Shown here piece by piece: positions 2,763 to 13,716 of a stretch of DNA of 64,000 nucleotides (positions within the stretch are counted from its first letter, which is position 1; every line of letters begins with the position of its first letter). The position numbers were made by a program, and so were the translations under genes. This DNA is from Myxococcaceae bacterium (GTDB taxonomy: Bacteria; Myxococcota; Myxococcia; Myxococcales; Myxococcaceae): assembly GCA_016793095.1 (NCBI GenBank), contig JAEUJQ010000072.1, positions 1 to 64,000 on the forward strand. The letters run 5' to 3'. The notes below the pieces were generated by a model, which worked only from the letters and a program-made list of their open reading frames with translations, was not told the DNA's origin and ran no database searches.

Positions 2763-3232
2763 ATGAGCCTCGCGGCGTTCGAGGAGCTCCTGCTGAAGGC
2801 ACCCTGGCCGCAGCTCCAGCACGCCTATGGCGATGCGACCGACACGCCCGGACATCTGCGGGCCCTCCTGGGCGGCGGGTCGCGCGCCCGCTCGGAGGCG
2901 CTCCGGGAGCTGTCTCTGAGCGTCATCCATCAGGGGAGCCACTGGGGTGGCGCGCCCGAGGCGACCCGGTGCCTCGTCGAGCTGGTGCTGGAGCCGACGA
3001 CGCCTGGCCGCGGCGACCTGCTCGCGCTGCTCTCCTACCTCGCGACCCGCTACGAGGACCGGAAGTGGCGCCGCTCGGTGCTCGAGCTCGCGTCGCGCGT
3101 CGAGGCCTCGACGACGACGACGCAGAGGTTCGCGCACAGGCCGCGGTGTTGCTCGCGTACCTGCCCTCGGTCGCGGCCGAAGCCACCCCTGAGCGGCTCA
3201 CGGTTCACAAGTCAGGCCGCGCAGCTCCGTGA
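2763..3232 (+). pseudogene. HEAT-repeat protein gene, frameshifted and truncated
   Basis: From the ATG at 2763 the first frame reads as a HEAT-like protein of a kind common in actinobacteria and myxobacteria (PWPQLQHAYGDATDTPGHLRAL near the start, then helical repeats). At about 3105-3120, in a GAC/ACG simple repeat, that frame dissolves into Thr/Arg/Ser-rich nonsense. The sensible continuation (DDDDAEVRAQAAVLLAYLP) is in another frame and ends at the TGA at 3230-3232. So one frameshift splits the gene; even joined, the product is only about 155 residues and stops inside the 3' end of the convergent lipoprotein gene. A sequencing error in the short repeat could explain the shift but not the short C-terminus. 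The full-length family has several more repeats, so I read this as a decaying remnant. Confidence 0.6.
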
Positions 3233-5480
3233 TTCGGCCATCGAACCAGAAGACCAGCAGGCTTCCAGGTCGCGTGTACAGCAAGCCCCGGCGAGCCCCG
3301 GGAGTGGCGGGGCGACCGATGACCGGGCTCCATTGGCCCACCGGGAATCCACTCGTGACACTCAGATGCTCCAGGCCGGTCTCGGTCAGCACGAATGTGT
3401 GTTGGCAGTACTGCTCGAAGTCCAGAGCGCGAGCGGTCGTCGGCGGTGCGACCAGAACGCGTGTCGGGAGGGATACAACACTGCCATCTCGCAACCCCAC
3501 GCGTGCTCGCGAACCGTCGAAGAACACCTCGACGGCTTCGTCGTCGGACACGAGTAGTTCATCGACTCGCCACACGACCGGGTTGTCCGCGCGGAAGCGG
3601 AAGACCCGTCCGCTCGCGACGACGTAACCGCCGGCGAAGCGTGTCCCAAGGGAGTCCGGAGCCAGGGCGATCGACGTCACGGTCGCGTGAGGAGCGGGAA
3701 CGAAGGCAACGCCAGAACGGCTCCCGTCAAAGAACCGAACCGCGTCACCGGTTGCGACCAACGTCAGCGCACCCCCGTCTGCCAGCTCTCTTCCAGTAGC
3801 GGCGGTCGCAGTCCCCGGGAATGACCAGACGGCCGTGGGCTGAACCTGCACATCGACGTTCCAGGCGAAGAGAGAAGACGAGCCCGCATCGGCTTGAGCC
3901 AGCAATTGACCGACAGCCCATCCCGGTCGCCCCGAGACAGCGCTTGGCTCCTTCACCGGAAGGCGTTCCACCCAGGGACCACCTCGCGTGAGCACGACGC
4001 TGTACGGCTGGTCGCCCACCGATCCCGCGGGCACGACCTCGGCCGGCACGAAGCCGTGAACCTCGTCGCTGACGGTGACTGCTGACGATGGCGGTCGAGT
4101 CGGTAACAGCGGTGTTGTGCGAGCACTCGACTCCATCAGCCTCAAGACGGGCCACGCACCTGCGAAGGCTCCGGTTCTCGCATCAGTGCTGACCGCGACG
4201 TCGTCGAGCACCTCCGAAGCGCCGCCGTCTTCAAGCGCGCCCACGTAGCTTCGCGACGATCGCTTGCACCAGGCTTGAAGCGCCAGGTTGTCGAATCGCC
4301 ACGCAACCGGTTCACAGTCGGTCGTGCCCTGTGCTCCCAGGAAGAACGGCGAAGACATCAGCGTCGCCATGCACGCGGGTGGCATGGCTCCAGGACTCAT
4401 GAAGGACAACAGCGAAGAGAAGACTGCCCCGCGTGCGCGCGATTCGACGACGACAGGACCGACGAAGTCGTTGCTTATCCGGCTCCAGCTGCGGCAGTCC
4501 GGTGCCACGATGGGCAGACCTCCATCGACGGTTCCCACTCGAAGGCCTTCGGAAGTCACTGCTGCGAGCTGAAGCTCTCCCCGAGAACTGAACTCGACCG
4601 CGTCGAAGATGCGCCCGGTCACCGACACGGAATCCACTCCGCTGGGCGTCCAGCGAACGACGCTCCCCGGCCCGAGGCCGTAGATGCTGCTGAAGCCAGA
4701 GCGCAGCGACTCCACCCCGCTCGGGAAGACCCCTCGCGTCACGCCGCCATCAGACCAGTTCACGGCCGCCCAGCCGCCGTCTTCGAGGAGCACGACGGTT
4801 CCATCCCGCGTCGTCCCCAACGACCTCGCGTGGTTCGGTAGCGCGACGAATCGGCTGGTCGTTCCCCGTTGCCGACAGCTCAAGGAGCGAGCGGCTGGGA
4901 ACTCCATTCGGTAGACGCCGGCAGTCGTCATGACATCGAACTGTGTCGTGATGCAGGAGCCGTCGATGCCCAGTGGCGCCGGCTCAACGTGCGTCGGCGA
5001 CCCAACCCAGAGCGGAGGGTTCCGGTCAATCAGCGTCGCCGCTGGCAGCTCGGCCACCCGCAGCGCCTCTGCGCCGGTGTCGAGACACCGGGCGTCCGGG
5101 CCACACCGCCAGCCCGCATCCCCCGAGCAGTCACGGTCGTCACGACACGCGACGCCTCGCACCGTCTCCCGGTCGTAACACTTCCCTTCGACGCCGCAAT
5201 GCCAACCAAAGCACTCGTCGTTCGTGCGGCACATCCAGGGCCCCGGCCCTTTTGCATGACAGATCGCATCGAGGCCGCACTGCCAGCCATAACAGTCTGC
5301 GTTGTCGCGACAGCGCCAGGGTCCTGGTTCGTCGCGAAGACAGCGCCCCTCGAGCCCGCAATGCCACTCACCGGGACACTGGTCCGCGCCGCCATCCGGC
5401 GTACAGAGAAACGGAGCTCCCGCCTCGAGGTCGACCCTGGCACACCCGGCGAGCAGCGTGAGGAGAACGAAGCCCCGCAT
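3198..5480 (-). CDS. Cys-repeat lipoprotein with propeller-like body
   Basis: A 760-residue predicted lipoprotein: the signal peptide ends in the lipobox LLAGC (C13). Four consecutive Cys modules follow, each with four cysteines: C26/35/41/47, C57/63/68/74, C84/90/95/101 and C112/118/126/132. The middle two have the strict spacing C-x5-C-x4-C-x5-C and near-identical text (WxCRxNxxCxGWxCG). These are small disulphide knots of the EGF/dickkopf-like kind seen in many myxobacterial surface proteins. The remaining 620 residues are rich in short beta-strand-like segments with DGG turns and look like a beta-propeller, though I cannot assign a blade family. It is the second gene of an operon with the gene starting at 6297; only one base separates that stop from this ATG. 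Its 3' end overlaps the broken HEAT gene on the other strand. Function unknown; likely outer-membrane or surface anchored. Confidence 0.85.
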   Translation of the reverse strand: MRGFVLLTLLAGCARVDLEAGAPFLCTPDGGADQCPGEWHCGLEGRCLRDEPGPWRCRDNADCYGWQCGLDAICHAKGPGPWMCRTNDECFGWHCGVEGKCYDRETVRGVACRDDRDCSGDAGWRCGPDARCLDTGAEALRVAELPAATLIDRNPPLWVGSPTHVEPAPLGIDGSCITTQFDVMTTAGVYRMEFPAARSLSCRQRGTTSRFVALPNHARSLGTTRDGTVVLLEDGGWAAVNWSDGGVTRGVFPSGVESLRSGFSSIYGLGPGSVVRWTPSGVDSVSVTGRIFDAVEFSSRGELQLAAVTSEGLRVGTVDGGLPIVAPDCRSWSRISNDFVGPVVVESRARGAVFSSLLSFMSPGAMPPACMATLMSSPFFLGAQGTTDCEPVAWRFDNLALQAWCKRSSRSYVGALEDGGASEVLDDVAVSTDARTGAFAGAWPVLRLMESSARTTPLLPTRPPSSAVTVSDEVHGFVPAEVVPAGSVGDQPYSVVLTRGGPWVERLPVKEPSAVSGRPGWAVGQLLAQADAGSSSLFAWNVDVQVQPTAVWSFPGTATAATGRELADGGALTLVATGDAVRFFDGSRSGVAFVPAPHATVTSIALAPDSLGTRFAGGYVVASGRVFRFRADNPVVWRVDELLVSDDEAVEVFFDGSRARVGLRDGSVVSLPTRVLVAPPTTARALDFEQYCQHTFVLTETGLEHLSVTSGFPVGQWSPVIGRPATPGARRGLLYTRPGSLLVFWFDGRITELRGLTCEP

Positions 5481-8439: not shown

Positions 8440-8736
8440 GTGAAGCAATGCCTGTCGTGCAACGGCCTCGTCCCCGACACCCTCGACGTCTGTCCGAACT
8501 GCGCGGTGACGCGGAGGAAGAAGGGCCTCAAAGTGGTGGCTGCGGCGAGCCTGGTGTCGCTCGCGCTCAGCAACTGCGGCAGCCAGATGGCACTCTACGG
8601 CGTGCCCTGTACCTCGAAGCAGGTCGACGGCGGCAACAACGGCTGCCTGGGCGCCTGTGACACGCTGCTGCCCGATGGCGGCGACCCGCGGAAGGACCGC
8701 ACCAGCTCCTGCTTCACCGATGGCGGCACGCCCTGA
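8440..8736 (+). CDS. small zinc-ribbon / Cys-rich protein preceding a radical SAM enzyme
   Basis: 98 residues from a GTG at 8440, chosen because it places a zinc ribbon at the N-terminus: C4xxC7 and C18xxC21 (MKQCLSCNGLVPDTLDVCPNC). A longer upstream reading to 8287 is low-complexity and unlikely. After a basic stretch (RRKKG) comes a hydrophobic segment (about 32-44) that ends ALSNCG, which could be a transmembrane helix or a lipobox-like site. The C-terminal half has five more cysteines (in NCGS, VPCT, GCLGAC, SSCF) and Asp/Gly motifs. The gene overlaps the radical SAM gene by 17 bp, so the two are co-translated. By analogy with RiPP systems it is a candidate substrate or partner of that enzyme, but a zinc ribbon at the N-terminus is not usual for a precursor peptide. 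Confidence 0.7.
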   Translation: MKQCLSCNGLVPDTLDVCPNCAVTRRKKGLKVVAAASLVSLALSNCGSQMALYGVPCTSKQVDGGNNGCLGACDTLLPDGGDPRKDRTSSCFTDGGTP

Positions 8737-10000
8737 CGACTCCGCCTCGTCGGCTCGCGACGAGGTGTTCCGCCGCTTCGACGTCCGCACGCCGCTGAGG
8801 CCCAGCTACGTCGTCTGGGAGCTCACCCTCGCGTGCGACCAGCCCTGCACCCACTGCGGCTCGCGGGCAGGCACCGCGCGCGAAGGCGAGCTCACGACCG
8901 CGCAGGCCCTCGGCGTCGTCGACCAGCTCGCTGCGATGGGCACCTTCGAGGTCGTGCTCATCGGCGGCGAGGCCTACCTGCACCCGGGCTTCCTCGAGCT
9001 CGTGCGCGCGCTGCGCTCGAAGAACATCCGCCCCACCATGACGACGGGTGGTCGCGGCATCACGCCAGCGCTCGCGAGGTCCATGCGGGAGGCCGGACTC
9101 CACTCGGTGTCCGTGAGCATCGACGGGCTCGAGGTCACGCACGACCTCATGCGCGCGAGCCCCGGCAGCTTCGCCTCGGCCACCGCCGCGCTGCACGCCT
9201 TCCGCGACGTGGGCCTGCGCACCGCCGCGAACACGAACTTCAACCGCCTCAACCAGGCCGACGCCGAGCCCCTCTACGAGCACCTGCGCGCCTGTGGCAT
9301 CAGCGCCTGGCAGGTGATGCTGACGACGCCCATCGGCCGCGCGTCCGACCGGCCCGCGATGCTGCTCCAGCCGTGGGACCTGCTCGACCTCATGCCCCGC
9401 CTGGTGGCGCTCAAGGAGCGCGGCTTCGTCGACGGCGTTCTGCTGATGCCGGGGAACAACCTGGGGTACTTCGGCCCCGAGGAGACCGCCCTGCGCTCGC
9501 CTGCGAAGGGCATGACCGACCACTGGATGGGCTGCCAGGCCGGCAAGTACGTGATGGGCATCGAGGCCGACGGCGGTGTGAAGGGCTGCCCGTCGCTGCA
9601 GAGCCGGCACTACCTCGGCGGCTCGCTCGCGAACCAGTCGCTCGAGGCCATCTGGAACGAGACGAAGCCGCTCGCCTTCGCGCGGGCGCGCACGGTGGAC
9701 GACCTCTGGGGCTTCTGCCGCTCCTGCCCCTTCGCCGCGACCTGCCTCGGCGGCTGCACCTTCACCGCGCACGCGTTCTTCGGCCGACCGGGCAACAACC
9801 CGTACTGCCACTTCCGGGCGCGCGCACTGCAGGCAGAAGGAAAGCGGGAGCGCCTCGTGCTGAAGGAGGCCGCTCCCGGTGAGCCCTTCGACAATGGGTT
9901 GTTCGAGCTGGTCGAGGAGCCGTTCGACGCGCCGGATCCGCGACCGCCGACGCCGAGGGAGCTGGTCAAGGTGACGAAGCTCCCCCGGCCGAAGGCCTGA
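8720..10000 (+). CDS. radical SAM/SPASM domain protein
   Basis: 426 residues from the ATG at 8720; an earlier in-frame start at 8657 would lie wholly inside the upstream gene. The radical SAM cluster motif is C39xxxC43xxC46 (CDQPCTHC). The SPASM domain is complete: C272-x12-G-x4-C290, then C333xxC336x5C342x3C346, then C363, the seven-cysteine pattern that binds auxiliary Fe-S clusters in peptide-modifying enzymes of the anSME/PqqE type. A GGE motif (IGGEAYLHPG, near 82-90) binds SAM in this superfamily. The C-terminal 50 residues are Pro/charged and variable. Family knowledge: SPASM proteins usually modify ribosomal peptides or enzyme side chains. The overlapping small Cys-rich gene upstream is the obvious candidate partner. 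No dedicated exporter or protease is adjacent. Confidence 0.92.
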   Translation: MAARPDDSASSARDEVFRRFDVRTPLRPSYVVWELTLACDQPCTHCGSRAGTAREGELTTAQALGVVDQLAAMGTFEVVLIGGEAYLHPGFLELVRALRSKNIRPTMTTGGRGITPALARSMREAGLHSVSVSIDGLEVTHDLMRASPGSFASATAALHAFRDVGLRTAANTNFNRLNQADAEPLYEHLRACGISAWQVMLTTPIGRASDRPAMLLQPWDLLDLMPRLVALKERGFVDGVLLMPGNNLGYFGPEETALRSPAKGMTDHWMGCQAGKYVMGIEADGGVKGCPSLQSRHYLGGSLANQSLEAIWNETKPLAFARARTVDDLWGFCRSCPFAATCLGGCTFTAHAFFGRPGNNPYCHFRARALQAEGKRERLVLKEAAPGEPFDNGLFELVEEPFDAPDPRPPTPRELVKVTKLPRPKA

Positions 10001-10001
10001 C

Positions 10002-10784
10002 TCAGAAGGCGGCGATGGTCAGCATGGCGGCGTCGGCGCGGCTCGGCGCTCCTGCGGTGCGCTTCAGGTTCGACAGGTCCCGCTCGAGCGCCTGGCGCCG
10101 CTGGATGAGCTCCTCGCGCTGCGCGACCGCCTCGTCCTTCGCTCGGGAGCCGCCGACCGCGCCGACGATGATCATCGCGACGCCGCCGAGGCCGACCGCG
10201 AGGAACGGGATGCCGACGGGCGGGAAGACCATCAGGATGAGCCCGACGAGCGCCGCCGGCGAGAGCACCGCGCCGATGACGACGAGCGCGATGGAACCAC
10301 CGGGCCAGCTGGTGTCGATGCCGCGGAGCTGCGCGTTGATGCCGTCGATGTCGCTCTCGAGCTGCATGACCTGCTGCGAGAGGCTCAGCCCACCGCGGGT
10401 CGGAATGGGCGGGGGCGCCTGGGCGATGAGCGTCGCCGAGCGGGACGACGGAGGAGGCGGCTCCGTCAAGCGCGCGTTCGCAGGCTGGTAGGGCTCGGGA
10501 GGCGGGGGCGGCGGCGAGAACCCTGCGGTGGTGTCGACGGGAGCGGCGCTGCGGGCCTTGCAGACCTTCGCCACGCAGCGCAGTGAGCCGTCGCTCGAGC
10601 AGTCAGACGTCGCCTCACAGGAGAGGCCTTCCTTCGTGGCCGCGATCGGCGCCGTACACATCGAGTTCACGCACTTGAGGCCGGCGCGGCAATCGGAGCG
10701 GGCGCGGCACGATTCGCCGACGTCGCCGAGCGAGGCGTCAGCGGTCTGAGAAAGGAAGGCGGTAACGAGCAGGGTGGTCAGCAT
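10002..10784 (-). CDS. Cys-module membrane protein (partner of 10968 gene)
   Basis: 260 residues from the ATG at 10784; the longer frame to 10865 adds 27 residues that spoil the signal peptide. MLTTLLVTAFLSQTADA is a signal sequence. Two Cys modules follow: C26/32/38/43 (C-x5-C-x5-C-x4-C) and C56/62/70/75. A Pro-rich stretch (about 88-125) leads to a heptad-like segment (LSQQVMQLESDIDGINAQLRG), two hydrophobic helices (about 168-215) and a second coiled coil (REELIQRRQALERDLSNL), ending MLTIAAF. The N-terminal 45 residues match those of the divergent gene at 10968 in both text and Cys spacing, so the two genes share an ancestor for that part. Envelope location likely; function unknown. Confidence 0.8.
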   Translation of the reverse strand: MLTTLLVTAFLSQTADASLGDVGESCRARSDCRAGLKCVNSMCTAPIAATKEGLSCEATSDCSSDGSLRCVAKVCKARSAAPVDTTAGFSPPPPPPEPYQPANARLTEPPPPSSRSATLIAQAPPPIPTRGGLSLSQQVMQLESDIDGINAQLRGIDTSWPGGSIALVVIGAVLSPAALVGLILMVFPPVGIPFLAVGLGGVAMIIVGAVGGSRAKDEAVAQREELIQRRQALERDLSNLKRTAGAPSRADAAMLTIAAF

Positions 10785-10967
10785 GGGGTCCTCGAAAGGG
10801 TGTGAGTGAGTGCGGCGGATCAGCCCCTGTGCAAGGCCGGCACACACCCAGGTGCCCAGAATCACGTCGAAGACACCGGGACCCGTCTCAGATCGCGGAT
10901 GGTGGCCGAGACGGAAGGAGTCGTTTCAGGGAGTTGGGCCGGCGGCCGATCTGCACGACGGCCCCCC

Positions 10968-11711
10968 ATGCTCACCACCCCACTCATCGTCCTCCTCTCT
11001 GCTGTTCCCGTCCTTGGCGAAGAAGGCGAGTCGTGCCGCACCGACGCTGACTGCCTCTCCTCACTGGCCTGCACCTCGAGGGTCTGCACGCCCCGGCCCG
11101 CCCCTGCTGCGCCTCCTTCGCGTTCTGTCCCGTCGGTTCCCGCTGAGCCGGCCCCGTCTCTCCGCACTGAGGAGCCACCGCCAGCGGCCGAGGTCGTCAC
11201 CGAGACCTCACCAGCGGACGAGACGCCGCGGTACTTCACCGGCGTGCACTTCGTCCTCGGCGCGATGGCTGGCGCGGGTCCGATGTGGACGAAGTCGTCA
11301 GGGTACCTGCTCGGTCAGCCACAGGAGTTCGAAGCCTTCAGCGCGCAGATTCCGATGGAGCTCCGGATCGGCGTGCTCTTCGGGCGCTTCGAGCTGATGG
11401 CGGAGGTTGCTCCGGCGACGCTGGCGCTGATGGCAGCTCCCATTCGTCACTTCTCCGCAGCGCTCTCGGCGGGGTTCATGCTGCCGCTCTACGAGAACGG
11501 TGACTTCAGCGTCTCGCTCCCCCTGCGCGCCCGTGGCGGGGTCTTCCTCAGCAGCCGCAACGGCGGACCCCTCGTCGGTGGCAGCGCAGGCGTCGGCCTT
11601 CGGTTCGGTCGCGCCCTCGTCGAACTGCGCGCGCTCGCGGAGTACCGCCACGTCTGGGCTGGCTCCAGCTTCGCCGTGCCGGTCGACCTGAGCTTCTCGT
11701 GGATCTTCTGA
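10968..11711 (+). CDS. Cys-module protein with outer-membrane barrel-like C-terminus
   Basis: 247 residues from the ATG at 10968, where MLTTPLIVLLSAVPVLG forms a signal peptide; the upstream extension to 10806 has no signal and is rejected. One Cys module, C23/29/35/40, has the same C-x5-C-x5-C-x4-C spacing as the divergent neighbour. A Pro/Ala linker (41-90) leads to a C-terminal domain of alternating hydrophobic/polar strands (YFTGVHFVLGAM, MELRIGVLFGRFELMAEV, ALVELRALAEYRHVWAG) ending in VDLSFSWIF. A final aromatic residue after alternating strands is the usual signature of a beta-barrel outer-membrane protein. Likely an eight-strand-type barrel with a periplasmic or surface Cys head. No family named. 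Confidence 0.75.
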   Translation: MLTTPLIVLLSAVPVLGEEGESCRTDADCLSSLACTSRVCTPRPAPAAPPSRSVPSVPAEPAPSLRTEEPPPAAEVVTETSPADETPRYFTGVHFVLGAMAGAGPMWTKSSGYLLGQPQEFEAFSAQIPMELRIGVLFGRFELMAEVAPATLALMAAPIRHFSAALSAGFMLPLYENGDFSVSLPLRARGGVFLSSRNGGPLVGGSAGVGLRFGRALVELRALAEYRHVWAGSSFAVPVDLSFSWIF

Positions 11712-12173: not shown

Positions 12174-12298
12174 CGCGCTCGCCCTGGCCCGACGGGCCTA
12201 CGGCTGCCCGCGGGCCGCTTCGCCAGCGCTGGGTTATCGGCGCGCTCGCCCTGGCCCGACGGGCCTACGGCTGCCCGCGGGCCGCTTCGCCAGCGCTG
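12174..12298 (+). repeat. two tandem copies of a 58-bp stop-codon-linked repeat
   Basis: Copies at 12174-12231 and 12241-12298, identical over nearly all 58 bases and 67 bp apart. Each starts CGCGCTCGCCCTGGCCCGAC and ends in GCTTCGCCAGCGCTG. The ends can pair (GCGCT/AGCGC, then GGCCCG/CGGGCC after an internal loop), giving an imperfect hairpin. The first copy begins 7 bp after the stop of the 11744 gene, in sense orientation. The second copy runs through the last codons of the convergent RNA-ligase fusion gene. Confidence 0.85.
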
Positions 12299-13716
12299 AG
12301 CCTCGGCAACCGCACGCCCGACAGCGCCTCGAGCAGCGCCCGCGCCCGCACCTCACTGCGGGCAACGATGCGGCGGCCCGAGCCCGACAGCGTCGCGTCA
12401 CGCAGCAGCACCGGCTGCACCACCATCCACGCGAGTCGGTTCAGCCACGCCCGCAGGAAGCGGGTGCCGTCCTCCGACTCGTACGCGCGGGTGAGCGTGA
12501 CGCGCTGGCGGGCGTCGAGGTCGAGGCGCTCGAAGGCCGCGCCCAGCTCCCACGCCGCGTCAGCGGAGAGCGCGCACTCGAAGTCGAGGAAGCGCGCGGT
12601 GCCGTCCTGGAGCCGCACGTGTTCGGGCTTCAGGTCTCCGTGACAGACGACCCGCTCGGAGACGAGGCCGCGCTCCAGGGTCCGGAGCAGCGGCAGCAGC
12701 GCCTTCTTCGTCGCCAGTGCCCACCCATGACGGGGGCCGAGGGCGTCGAGCGCGCGCGTCAGGTGGGCCGAGGGTCGGTCTGGGAGGGCGTCGAGGGGCA
12801 GCGCGGTGGCCACGCGGTGCAAGGCCGAGAGCGAGCGGCCGACCGCGGCGACCTCGTCGAGCGACACGCCACGTCCGAACCGGCGCCCGCCGAGCCGGCC
12901 CATCACCACCGCCGAACCGCGCACGGACCTCAGCCCGGGGCCCAGGCGACCGACGCGCCGCAGGCGCTCGACCTCGACCTGCTGACGGCCGCGCTGATCA
13001 GCCCCGAAGCGCTTGGAGACCGAGCCTGCGCGCCCGCCCGCCCTGGGGAGCGGAGGACGACGCGGCGCTGCCGGAGCCTTCAGTGCGCGCTCGAGGAAGT
13101 CGTGGCGCACCAGCTTGAAGCAGCGCTGCCCCTGCACCACGATGAGGCCCTCGGCGGGTCCGCCGAAGCGTGAGGTGCGCGTGAGGGGCCAGAGCGACTC
13201 CACGTCGCGCACGGTGCCCCGGAAGACCGGCGTCGGCACCTCGAAGCCCGCGCGTGAGAGCAGCTCGTGCGACCGCTGCGGGCCCAGGAACGTTCTCCGC
13301 GCCTGGTGCACGAGGTCGAAGGCGACGAAGGGCACGTCACGGCGCGGATACGGCAGCCGCATGGGCGCGCCCTCGAGCCACTCCCCGTAGACGACGAGGT
13401 CATTCCCCAGCAGCCGCCACAGCGCGCCGAGCCGGTCGAACGCGAAGTCCACCATCGGCCACAGGCCAGGTCCGATGCGGTCGAGCGTGAGGAGCCCGTG
13501 GATGCGGGAGTGGATGCGTGGCACGCCGCGCACGAAGCTGAAGCCCACGTTGAGGCCGTCGAGCTTCTCGTACGCGACGAACGGCCGCGAGAGGACCGCC
13601 CGCGTCTGCCGCGGCGAGAGCACGACGTCGCCCTCGCTGAAGGCGCTCCCGGCGAGGTGCGGAATCGCCGGGTAGCGCGTGCCGAAGACGAGCTTCGGGT
13701 AGGTGGTGATGCCCAC
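12265..13716 (-). CDS. RNA ligase domain fused to an APH/Bud32-like kinase fold
   Basis: 483 residues from a GTG at 13716. Residues 1-215 carry all the motifs of an ATP-dependent RNA ligase nucleotidyltransferase: motif I EKLDG with the nucleophile K51, motif III VYGEWL (109-114), IIIa PFVAFDLVH (129-137), IV EGLIV (189-193) and V FKLVR (200-204). After a Pro/Arg linker (215-235), residues 235-470 look like an aminoglycoside-phosphotransferase or Bud32-type kinase: a candidate beta-3 lysine in SVSKRF (K235), the Brenner motif CHGDLKPEHV with D361, and the metal-binding DFE at D378. Known ligase enzymes join 5'-phosphate and 3'-OH RNA ends; a kinase-fold partner could phosphorylate RNA, a nucleotide or a small molecule. 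I do not know this combination as a named family. It follows the RG-rich gene by 9 bp, so they form an operon. The last 11 residues are encoded by the antisense of the 58-bp repeat. Confidence 0.85.
   Translation of the reverse strand: MGITTYPKLVFGTRYPAIPHLAGSAFSEGDVVLSPRQTRAVLSRPFVAYEKLDGLNVGFSFVRGVPRIHSRIHGLLTLDRIGPGLWPMVDFAFDRLGALWRLLGNDLVVYGEWLEGAPMRLPYPRRDVPFVAFDLVHQARRTFLGPQRSHELLSRAGFEVPTPVFRGTVRDVESLWPLTRTSRFGGPAEGLIVVQGQRCFKLVRHDFLERALKAPAAPRRPPLPRAGGRAGSVSKRFGADQRGRQQVEVERLRRVGRLGPGLRSVRGSAVVMGRLGGRRFGRGVSLDEVAAVGRSLSALHRVATALPLDALPDRPSAHLTRALDALGPRHGWALATKKALLPLLRTLERGLVSERVVCHGDLKPEHVRLQDGTARFLDFECALSADAAWELGAAFERLDLDARQRVTLTRAYESEDGTRFLRAWLNRLAWMVVQPVLLRDATLSGSGRRIVARSEVRARALLEALSGVRLPRLSAGEAARGQP

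Follow-up and report, generated by a model that had tools for sequence, protein, structure and literature searches.

Described splicease systems and the gene pair of the window

The reference enzyme for tyramine excision is PlpX (rSAM subclass IPR026482), which removes a 135.0757 Da fragment (mass change -135.0757 Da) at X-Tyr-Gly, acts naturally on MYG and LYG sites and on a splice tag reading ...RPLYGLPI, and works with PlpY, a protein of the RRE type (PMC10533398; PMC11002830). The spliceotides that result are reported to be widespread and to be protease inhibitors (PMC10373908; PMC11117315). Two further systems bear comparison: the GDL maturases (TIGR03913) with their DUF1843 peptides (PF08898) and the TIGR04133 enzymes, radical SAM/SPASM proteins whose genes are paired with that of a small lipoprotein (TIGR04134). 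In the TIGR04134 lipoproteins a Tyr-Gly follows the lipobox Cys; they are not known to have a zinc ribbon. A search of the open-access literature found no paper on splicease lipoproteins or on myxobacterial spliceases.

The locus described here lies in the window, the whole 64,000-nucleotide stretch of DNA that was analysed, from a Myxococcaceae genome of 8.8 Mb and about 70% GC. Two ORFs, one with GTG start at 8440 and stop at 8736 and the other with ATG start at 8720 and stop at 10000, bear out the earlier note, which had described a radical SAM/SPASM gene overlapping a small Cys-rich one. Their features are:

8440..8736, + strand: small partner protein, proposed splicease substrate, 98 aa (ORF; homologues adjoin the enzyme gene in 32/33 genomes with both)
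8449..8502, + strand: predicted zinc ribbon at the N-terminus (residues 4-21), CxxCxGxxPx5CPxC, which may serve in recognition (all 38 sequences keep the four Cys, the Gly and the Pro)
8527..8577, + strand: residues 30-46, a hydrophobic stretch with the lipobox-like LSNC (position -1 is Asn in the window protein, non-canonical; 34/38 relatives fit)
8593..8601, + strand: proposed splice site X-Y-G, Leu52-Tyr53-Gly54, in the context MALYGVPC (Tyr-Gly invariant in 38 complete proteins)
8602..8733, + strand: Cys/Asp/Gly-rich tail with 4 Cys, proposed to be extracytoplasmic and disulfide-bonded (even Cys count in 38/38 relatives)
8720..8736, + strand: 17-bp overlap of the small gene and the enzyme gene (the same overlap is seen in L013 and L014)
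8720..10000, + strand: radical SAM/SPASM enzyme, putatively of the splicease type, 426 aa (sub-cut-off matches to TIGR04103/TIGR03913; tree)
8834..8857, + strand: CDQPCTHC, radical SAM cluster motif with Cys 39, 43 and 46 (invariant columns in orthologues)
9533..9808, + strand: SPASM region with seven Cys (272-363; Pfam SPASM, invariant columns, SPASM fold)

Recurrence of the pair, the check proposed in the earlier note, was surveyed in 195 genomes of the window's phylum with thresholds of E <= 1e-130 for the enzyme and E <= 1e-10 for the small protein. The enzyme is found in 34 genomes, the small protein in 35 and both in 33 (Fisher p = 8e-34 for genomes that are not phylogenetically independent, with kinship uncorrected). 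The bearers are bacteria with large genomes, apparently myxobacteria. In G076, the sole enzyme-bearing genome that lacks the small gene, the enzyme lies at the edge of its contig, and the two with the small gene and no full enzyme (G108, G184) carry a truncated or broken enzyme gene adjoining it. Where both genes are present they are neighbours in 32/33 genomes, G036 having them on different contigs. They are arranged either on the same strand, often overlapping or touching, or divergently, and in the enzyme tree each arrangement turns up on different branches; this adjacency kept in either arrangement upholds the view that the two products are tied. Estimates of dN/dS are about 0.2-0.43 for the small gene (four relatives, 17-bp overlap unmasked) and about 0.1-0.38 for the enzyme gene, showing both to be under purifying selection. 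Because the pair recurs in 33/34 enzyme-bearing genomes and both genes are under such selection, the two form a real pair, beyond chance.

The copy number of the small gene varies. It is tandemly duplicated beside one enzyme in G108, and G008 carries two additional copies, unlinked to its full enzyme gene, of which one sits at the end of a contig; G021 holds an enzyme fragment with no small gene nearby. No further conserved neighbour (transporter, peptidase, second enzyme or second small gene) was found around the pair beyond near relatives and antisense or shared-frame artefacts. The lack of a conserved transporter or peptidase is what one would expect if the Sec/lipoprotein route took over their task.

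Affiliation of the enzyme

The enzyme scores above the Pfam cut-offs for Radical_SAM, with 68.9 bits, and for SPASM, with 30.6 bits. It has the CxxxCxxC motif together with the seven-Cys SPASM that characterize radical SAM/SPASM peptide maturases: Cys39, Cys43 and Cys46 (C39xxxC43xxC46) and the SPASM cysteines 272, 290, 333, 336, 342, 346 and 363 all stand in invariant columns of 21 orthologues, so that the SPASM pattern called perfect from the single sequence deserved the word. Two NCBIfam models are clearly ahead of all others, namely TIGR04103 (nif11-class maturase 3, PlpX type; 439.5 bits against a cut-off of 725) and TIGR03913 (GDL maturase; 389.4 bits against 591.75), and the enzyme stays below the cut-off of each, whereas the Nostoc member of TIGR04103 scores 853. 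Lesser matches are TIGR04133 (127.6 bits, cut-off 425) and TIGR03962 (111 bits). Identity is 46% with the nif11-class maturase 3 of Nostoc and 45% with GDL maturases. The PlpX subclass IPR026482 we take to be the same as TIGR04103, and the homology to PlpX, the proven enzyme, would run through TIGR04103 members and not through the sequence of PlpX itself.

A tree of 48 rows, only three of them outside rows, places the window-type enzymes in a clade of their own (support 100/98) that is sister to TIGR04103 and TIGR03913 joined (98/87). The superclade of spliceases (TIGR04103, TIGR03913 and relatives) includes the window type with support of 100/99 on a long branch of 1.58. Shared with TIGR04103 and TIGR03913 are the motifs CxxxCxxCGSR, GGE and GNNPxCxxR, of which CGSR and GNNPxCxxR occur in 21/21 window-type enzymes. 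An AlphaFold2 model (mean pLDDT 80.8) matches the folds of PqqE, SkfB, SuiB and anSME. SkfB is second by fold and the only solved structure that the sequence matches; no solved splicease structure was found in the structure search. With SkfB, SuiB and PqqE the enzyme has in common the radical SAM barrel and the SPASM fold, at only 15-22% identity and with no common substrate motif.

No window-type locus codes for a PlpY-like ORF, the RRE partner typical of Plp-type spliceotide loci. A search for a PlpY-like RRE had no match in the window's genome (G000) and gave nothing convincing in the 40 genomes searched. In contrast, such an ORF accompanies 80/80 cyanobacterial TIGR04103-type loci among the matches listed. 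Judged by sequence, the enzyme thus appears to represent a new branch of the splicease superclade, sister to its two described families and free of an RRE partner. The clade may already figure in the 2022 survey of spliceases by Scott et al. (Chem 8:2659).

The small protein and its Tyr-Gly site

Comparison of invariant residues among the small proteins, likewise proposed in the earlier note, was made on 38 complete members, leaving out G184 (frameshift), G008c (contig end) and G004 (no Tyr-Gly). It gave ten columns: Cys4, Cys7, Gly9, Pro12, Cys18, Cys21, Tyr53, Gly54, Cys69 and Gly96, with Tyr-Gly as the main element outside the zinc ribbon. The first six are predicted to form that ribbon (CxxC-x10-CPNC at residues 4-21 of the window protein); the ribbons of relatives have weak, sub-threshold matches to zinc-ribbon Pfam models, and the window protein itself has no match among Pfam and NCBIfam profiles. 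Its predicted structure is of low confidence, with values above 70 only at the zinc-ribbon end and in a portion of the tail. Assignment to the TIGR04134 rSAM-associated lipoproteins was rejected, with no HMM match even at E 10.

The Cys that ends the hydrophobic segment fits the lipobox pattern [LIVMFWSTAG][LIVMFYSTAGCQ][AGS]C in 34/38 proteins, as against 43/274 of the other Cys of the same proteins. The four misses, LSNC of the window protein among them, have Asn before the Cys. The lipobox-like segment that had been noticed in the window calls for one correction, as in the window protein Asn at -1 breaks the usual lipobox that most relatives fit; anchoring of the small protein as a membrane protein or lipoprotein is likely. 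Beyond the lipobox Cys each protein has 4, 2 or 6 Cys, never an odd number (38/38), in varying number and place, and the tails are mostly rich in Asp/Gly and poor in Lys/Arg. The even Cys count, the acidic tail and the signal-like segment ahead of it together speak for disulfide bonds formed outside the cytoplasm. Two distant homologues have a metal-binding motif of the MopE type (PF11617) in their tails, L111 5837-6208 (-) with 32.0 bits, above cut-off, and L112 9069-9542 (-) with 25.5 bits, just below it.

Tyr-Gly is present in 40/41 small proteins overall. It directly follows the lipobox-like Cys in 29/38 proteins and comes 3-7 residues later in 9/38, and the residue before Tyr is accordingly Cys in 29, the others being Val (4), Leu (3), Ala (1) and Ile (1). 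Most relatives have Pro two residues after the Gly and a Cys 4-8 residues after Tyr-Gly. Such a variable X beside a constant Tyr-Gly is what tolerance of spliceases at X would predict. The one homologue devoid of the site (G004, L122 10775-11215, -) lies beside an intact enzyme gene, a 36-nt in-frame gap removing both lipobox and Tyr-Gly; this is possibly an assembly error, or else a real loss of the site.

The window-type small proteins thus offer their enzyme an X-Tyr-Gly partner as in spliceotide systems, and partners of related enzymes can be set beside them. Among the matches listed, 77/80 cyanobacterial loci code for a precursor-like protein of the nif11/NHLP type in which a GG motif is followed by XYG; in a stricter count of core sites, again among the matches listed, X is mostly Leu, Met or Ile. 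The Nostoc precursor ends in IALYGLPPELF. Eight DUF1843 peptides that adjoin GDL enzymes include four with an N-terminal YG (RPYGPAM and LYGGAM among them); others have YA or YM. Enzymes of myxobacterial cousins adjoin KYGIPP and C[DE]YGVPPP peptides; a search within 1.5 kb of three of these cousins (L028, L029, L039) turned up no small ORF with YG. The window site MA-LYG-VPC fits this series of partner sites.

The likeness to PlpX/PlpY of Pleurocapsa consists of the common radical SAM/SPASM superclade, an X-Tyr-Gly in the partner and a window LYGVP close to the LYGLP of the tag. Unlike that system the window type is devoid of the PlpY RRE, of a Nif11/NHLP leader and of a GG cleavage site, its partner is a zinc-ribbon protein with membrane or lipoprotein character, and its enzyme stands in a separate sister clade. 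The GDL/DUF1843 system shares the 45% identity, the absence of PlpY nearby and the N-terminal Tyr-Gly of several partners; it differs in its tandem small DUF1843 proteins as substrate and its longer maturases, and the window enzyme falls outside the TIGR03913 clade. TIGR04133/TIGR04134 resembles the locus in pairing such an enzyme with a small lipoprotein, although the window enzyme fits TIGR04133 far less well than it fits TIGR04103 or TIGR03913.

Two observations were made in passing. A Nif11-type precursor-like protein of Dolichospermum sp. FACHB-1091 (L157 1492-1818, +) has the core CYGLPP, in which X is Cys, here in a cyanobacterium. In G056 a more distant radical SAM gene is accompanied by a small ORF (L033 2785-3054, +) that carries three C[DE]YGV(L/P)PP repeats and is possibly a multi-site splice substrate.

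Proposed reaction and alternatives

The reading that we favor, and consider probable, is that a splicease-type enzyme excises tyramine at the X-Tyr-Gly of the co-encoded small protein and leaves a ketoamide. Catalysis, the order of steps, lipidation, the role of the zinc ribbon and the biological function we infer as follows. The enzyme would recognise the small protein in the cytosol, plausibly via the N-terminal zinc ribbon, a role suggested for that part by the absence of the RRE partner PlpY. Tyramine would be cut out at Leu52-Tyr53-Gly54, giving an alpha-ketoamide in the backbone. The hydrophobic segment would then take the protein to the membrane, with lipidation possible at Cys46 in the window protein; most relatives would be lipoproteins with the lipid on the Cys directly preceding Tyr-Gly. 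The acidic tail would lie outside and form disulfides, and the alpha-ketoamide at the membrane surface would probably serve as a reversible covalent protease trap or as another electrophile. In 29/38 proteins X is the lipobox-like Cys itself; more tentatively, and with the odds somewhat against it, an RRE-free splicease reading the zinc-ribbon leader would there turn the residue to be lipidated into an alpha-keto-beta-homocysteine, giving a lipoprotein with a backbone ketoamide at its anchor, and signal peptidase II would later remove the leader.

The modification is placed at Tyr-Gly and not in the tail because Tyr-Gly is common to otherwise unrelated partners. Counting against a splicease are the family scores below cut-off, the missing PlpY, the G004 homologue and the YA or YM that stands for YG in certain partners of the wider family. 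Cross-linking of the Cys/Asp/Gly tail by thioether or C-C bonds (of the sacti-, ranthi- or cyclophane-type) is a frequent activity of SPASM peptide maturases; no tail has fewer than two Cys, and the resemblance to SkfB in sequence and fold agrees with it. Such cross-links are nevertheless unlikely, as the enzyme groups with TIGR04103/TIGR03913 and not with sactisynthases, the number and spacing of tail Cys vary while remaining even, as disulfides predict, and the invariant element is Tyr-Gly and no tail pattern. The tail as the modified part, suggested in the earlier note, is hence unsupported; the note's idea of a membrane-anchored substrate is strengthened, the small protein behaving as a substrate would, with a tandem duplicate in G108 and unlinked copies in G008, and its anchoring being likely.

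That the zinc-ribbon protein is instead a membrane scaffold or RRE-like helper, with the true substrate encoded elsewhere, would supply a performer for the job of the RRE partner missing near the enzyme and would account for a ribbon conserved as strongly as Tyr-Gly. We hold this to be improbable, since the X-Tyr-Gly is in the small protein itself (40/41), additional copies, whether in tandem or unlinked, are more readily explained for a substrate than for a stoichiometric helper, and no second conserved small gene is near. Least probable, and very unlikely, is action at X-Tyr-Gly with another outcome, e.g., decarboxylation of the Tyr, cleavage or coupling of the Tyr to the Cys downstream of it. 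SPASM enzymes of the mycofactocin type act on Tyr as well, and the TIGR03962 match and the Cys that follows Tyr-Gly in most relatives also speak for such an outcome; TIGR04103 and TIGR03913 fit far better, however, and a Cys after Tyr-Gly is no feature of most cyanobacterial sites among the matches listed.

If tyramine excision is what the pair performs, this backbone chemistry would reach beyond secreted peptides that have Nif11/NHLP leaders and include proteins anchored in the membrane, a zinc ribbon replacing leader and RRE, and lipoprotein export replacing a dedicated transporter. The locus would then offer protein engineering a candidate splicease that is complete in two genes, and protease trapping would be a testable idea of why these bacteria keep a ketoamide at their surface.

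Other genes of the window and its genome merit mention. Seven MYXO-CTERM matches above cut-off are found in this genome and none in 14 control genomes, which suits a myxobacterium. A 760-aa lipoprotein-like protein (3198-5480, -) has several N-terminal CRxxxDCxxxxCGxxxxC repeats and no Pfam match, and two divergent overlapping ORFs (10002-10865, -, and 10806-11711, +) each contain GESCRxxxDCxxxLxCxxxxC, weakly like the EB module. The protein of 483 aa coded at 12265-13716 (-) is an unusual fusion of an RNA ligase domain (PF09414, 50 bits) to an APH-type phosphotransferase (PF01636, 56 bits), both above cut-off.
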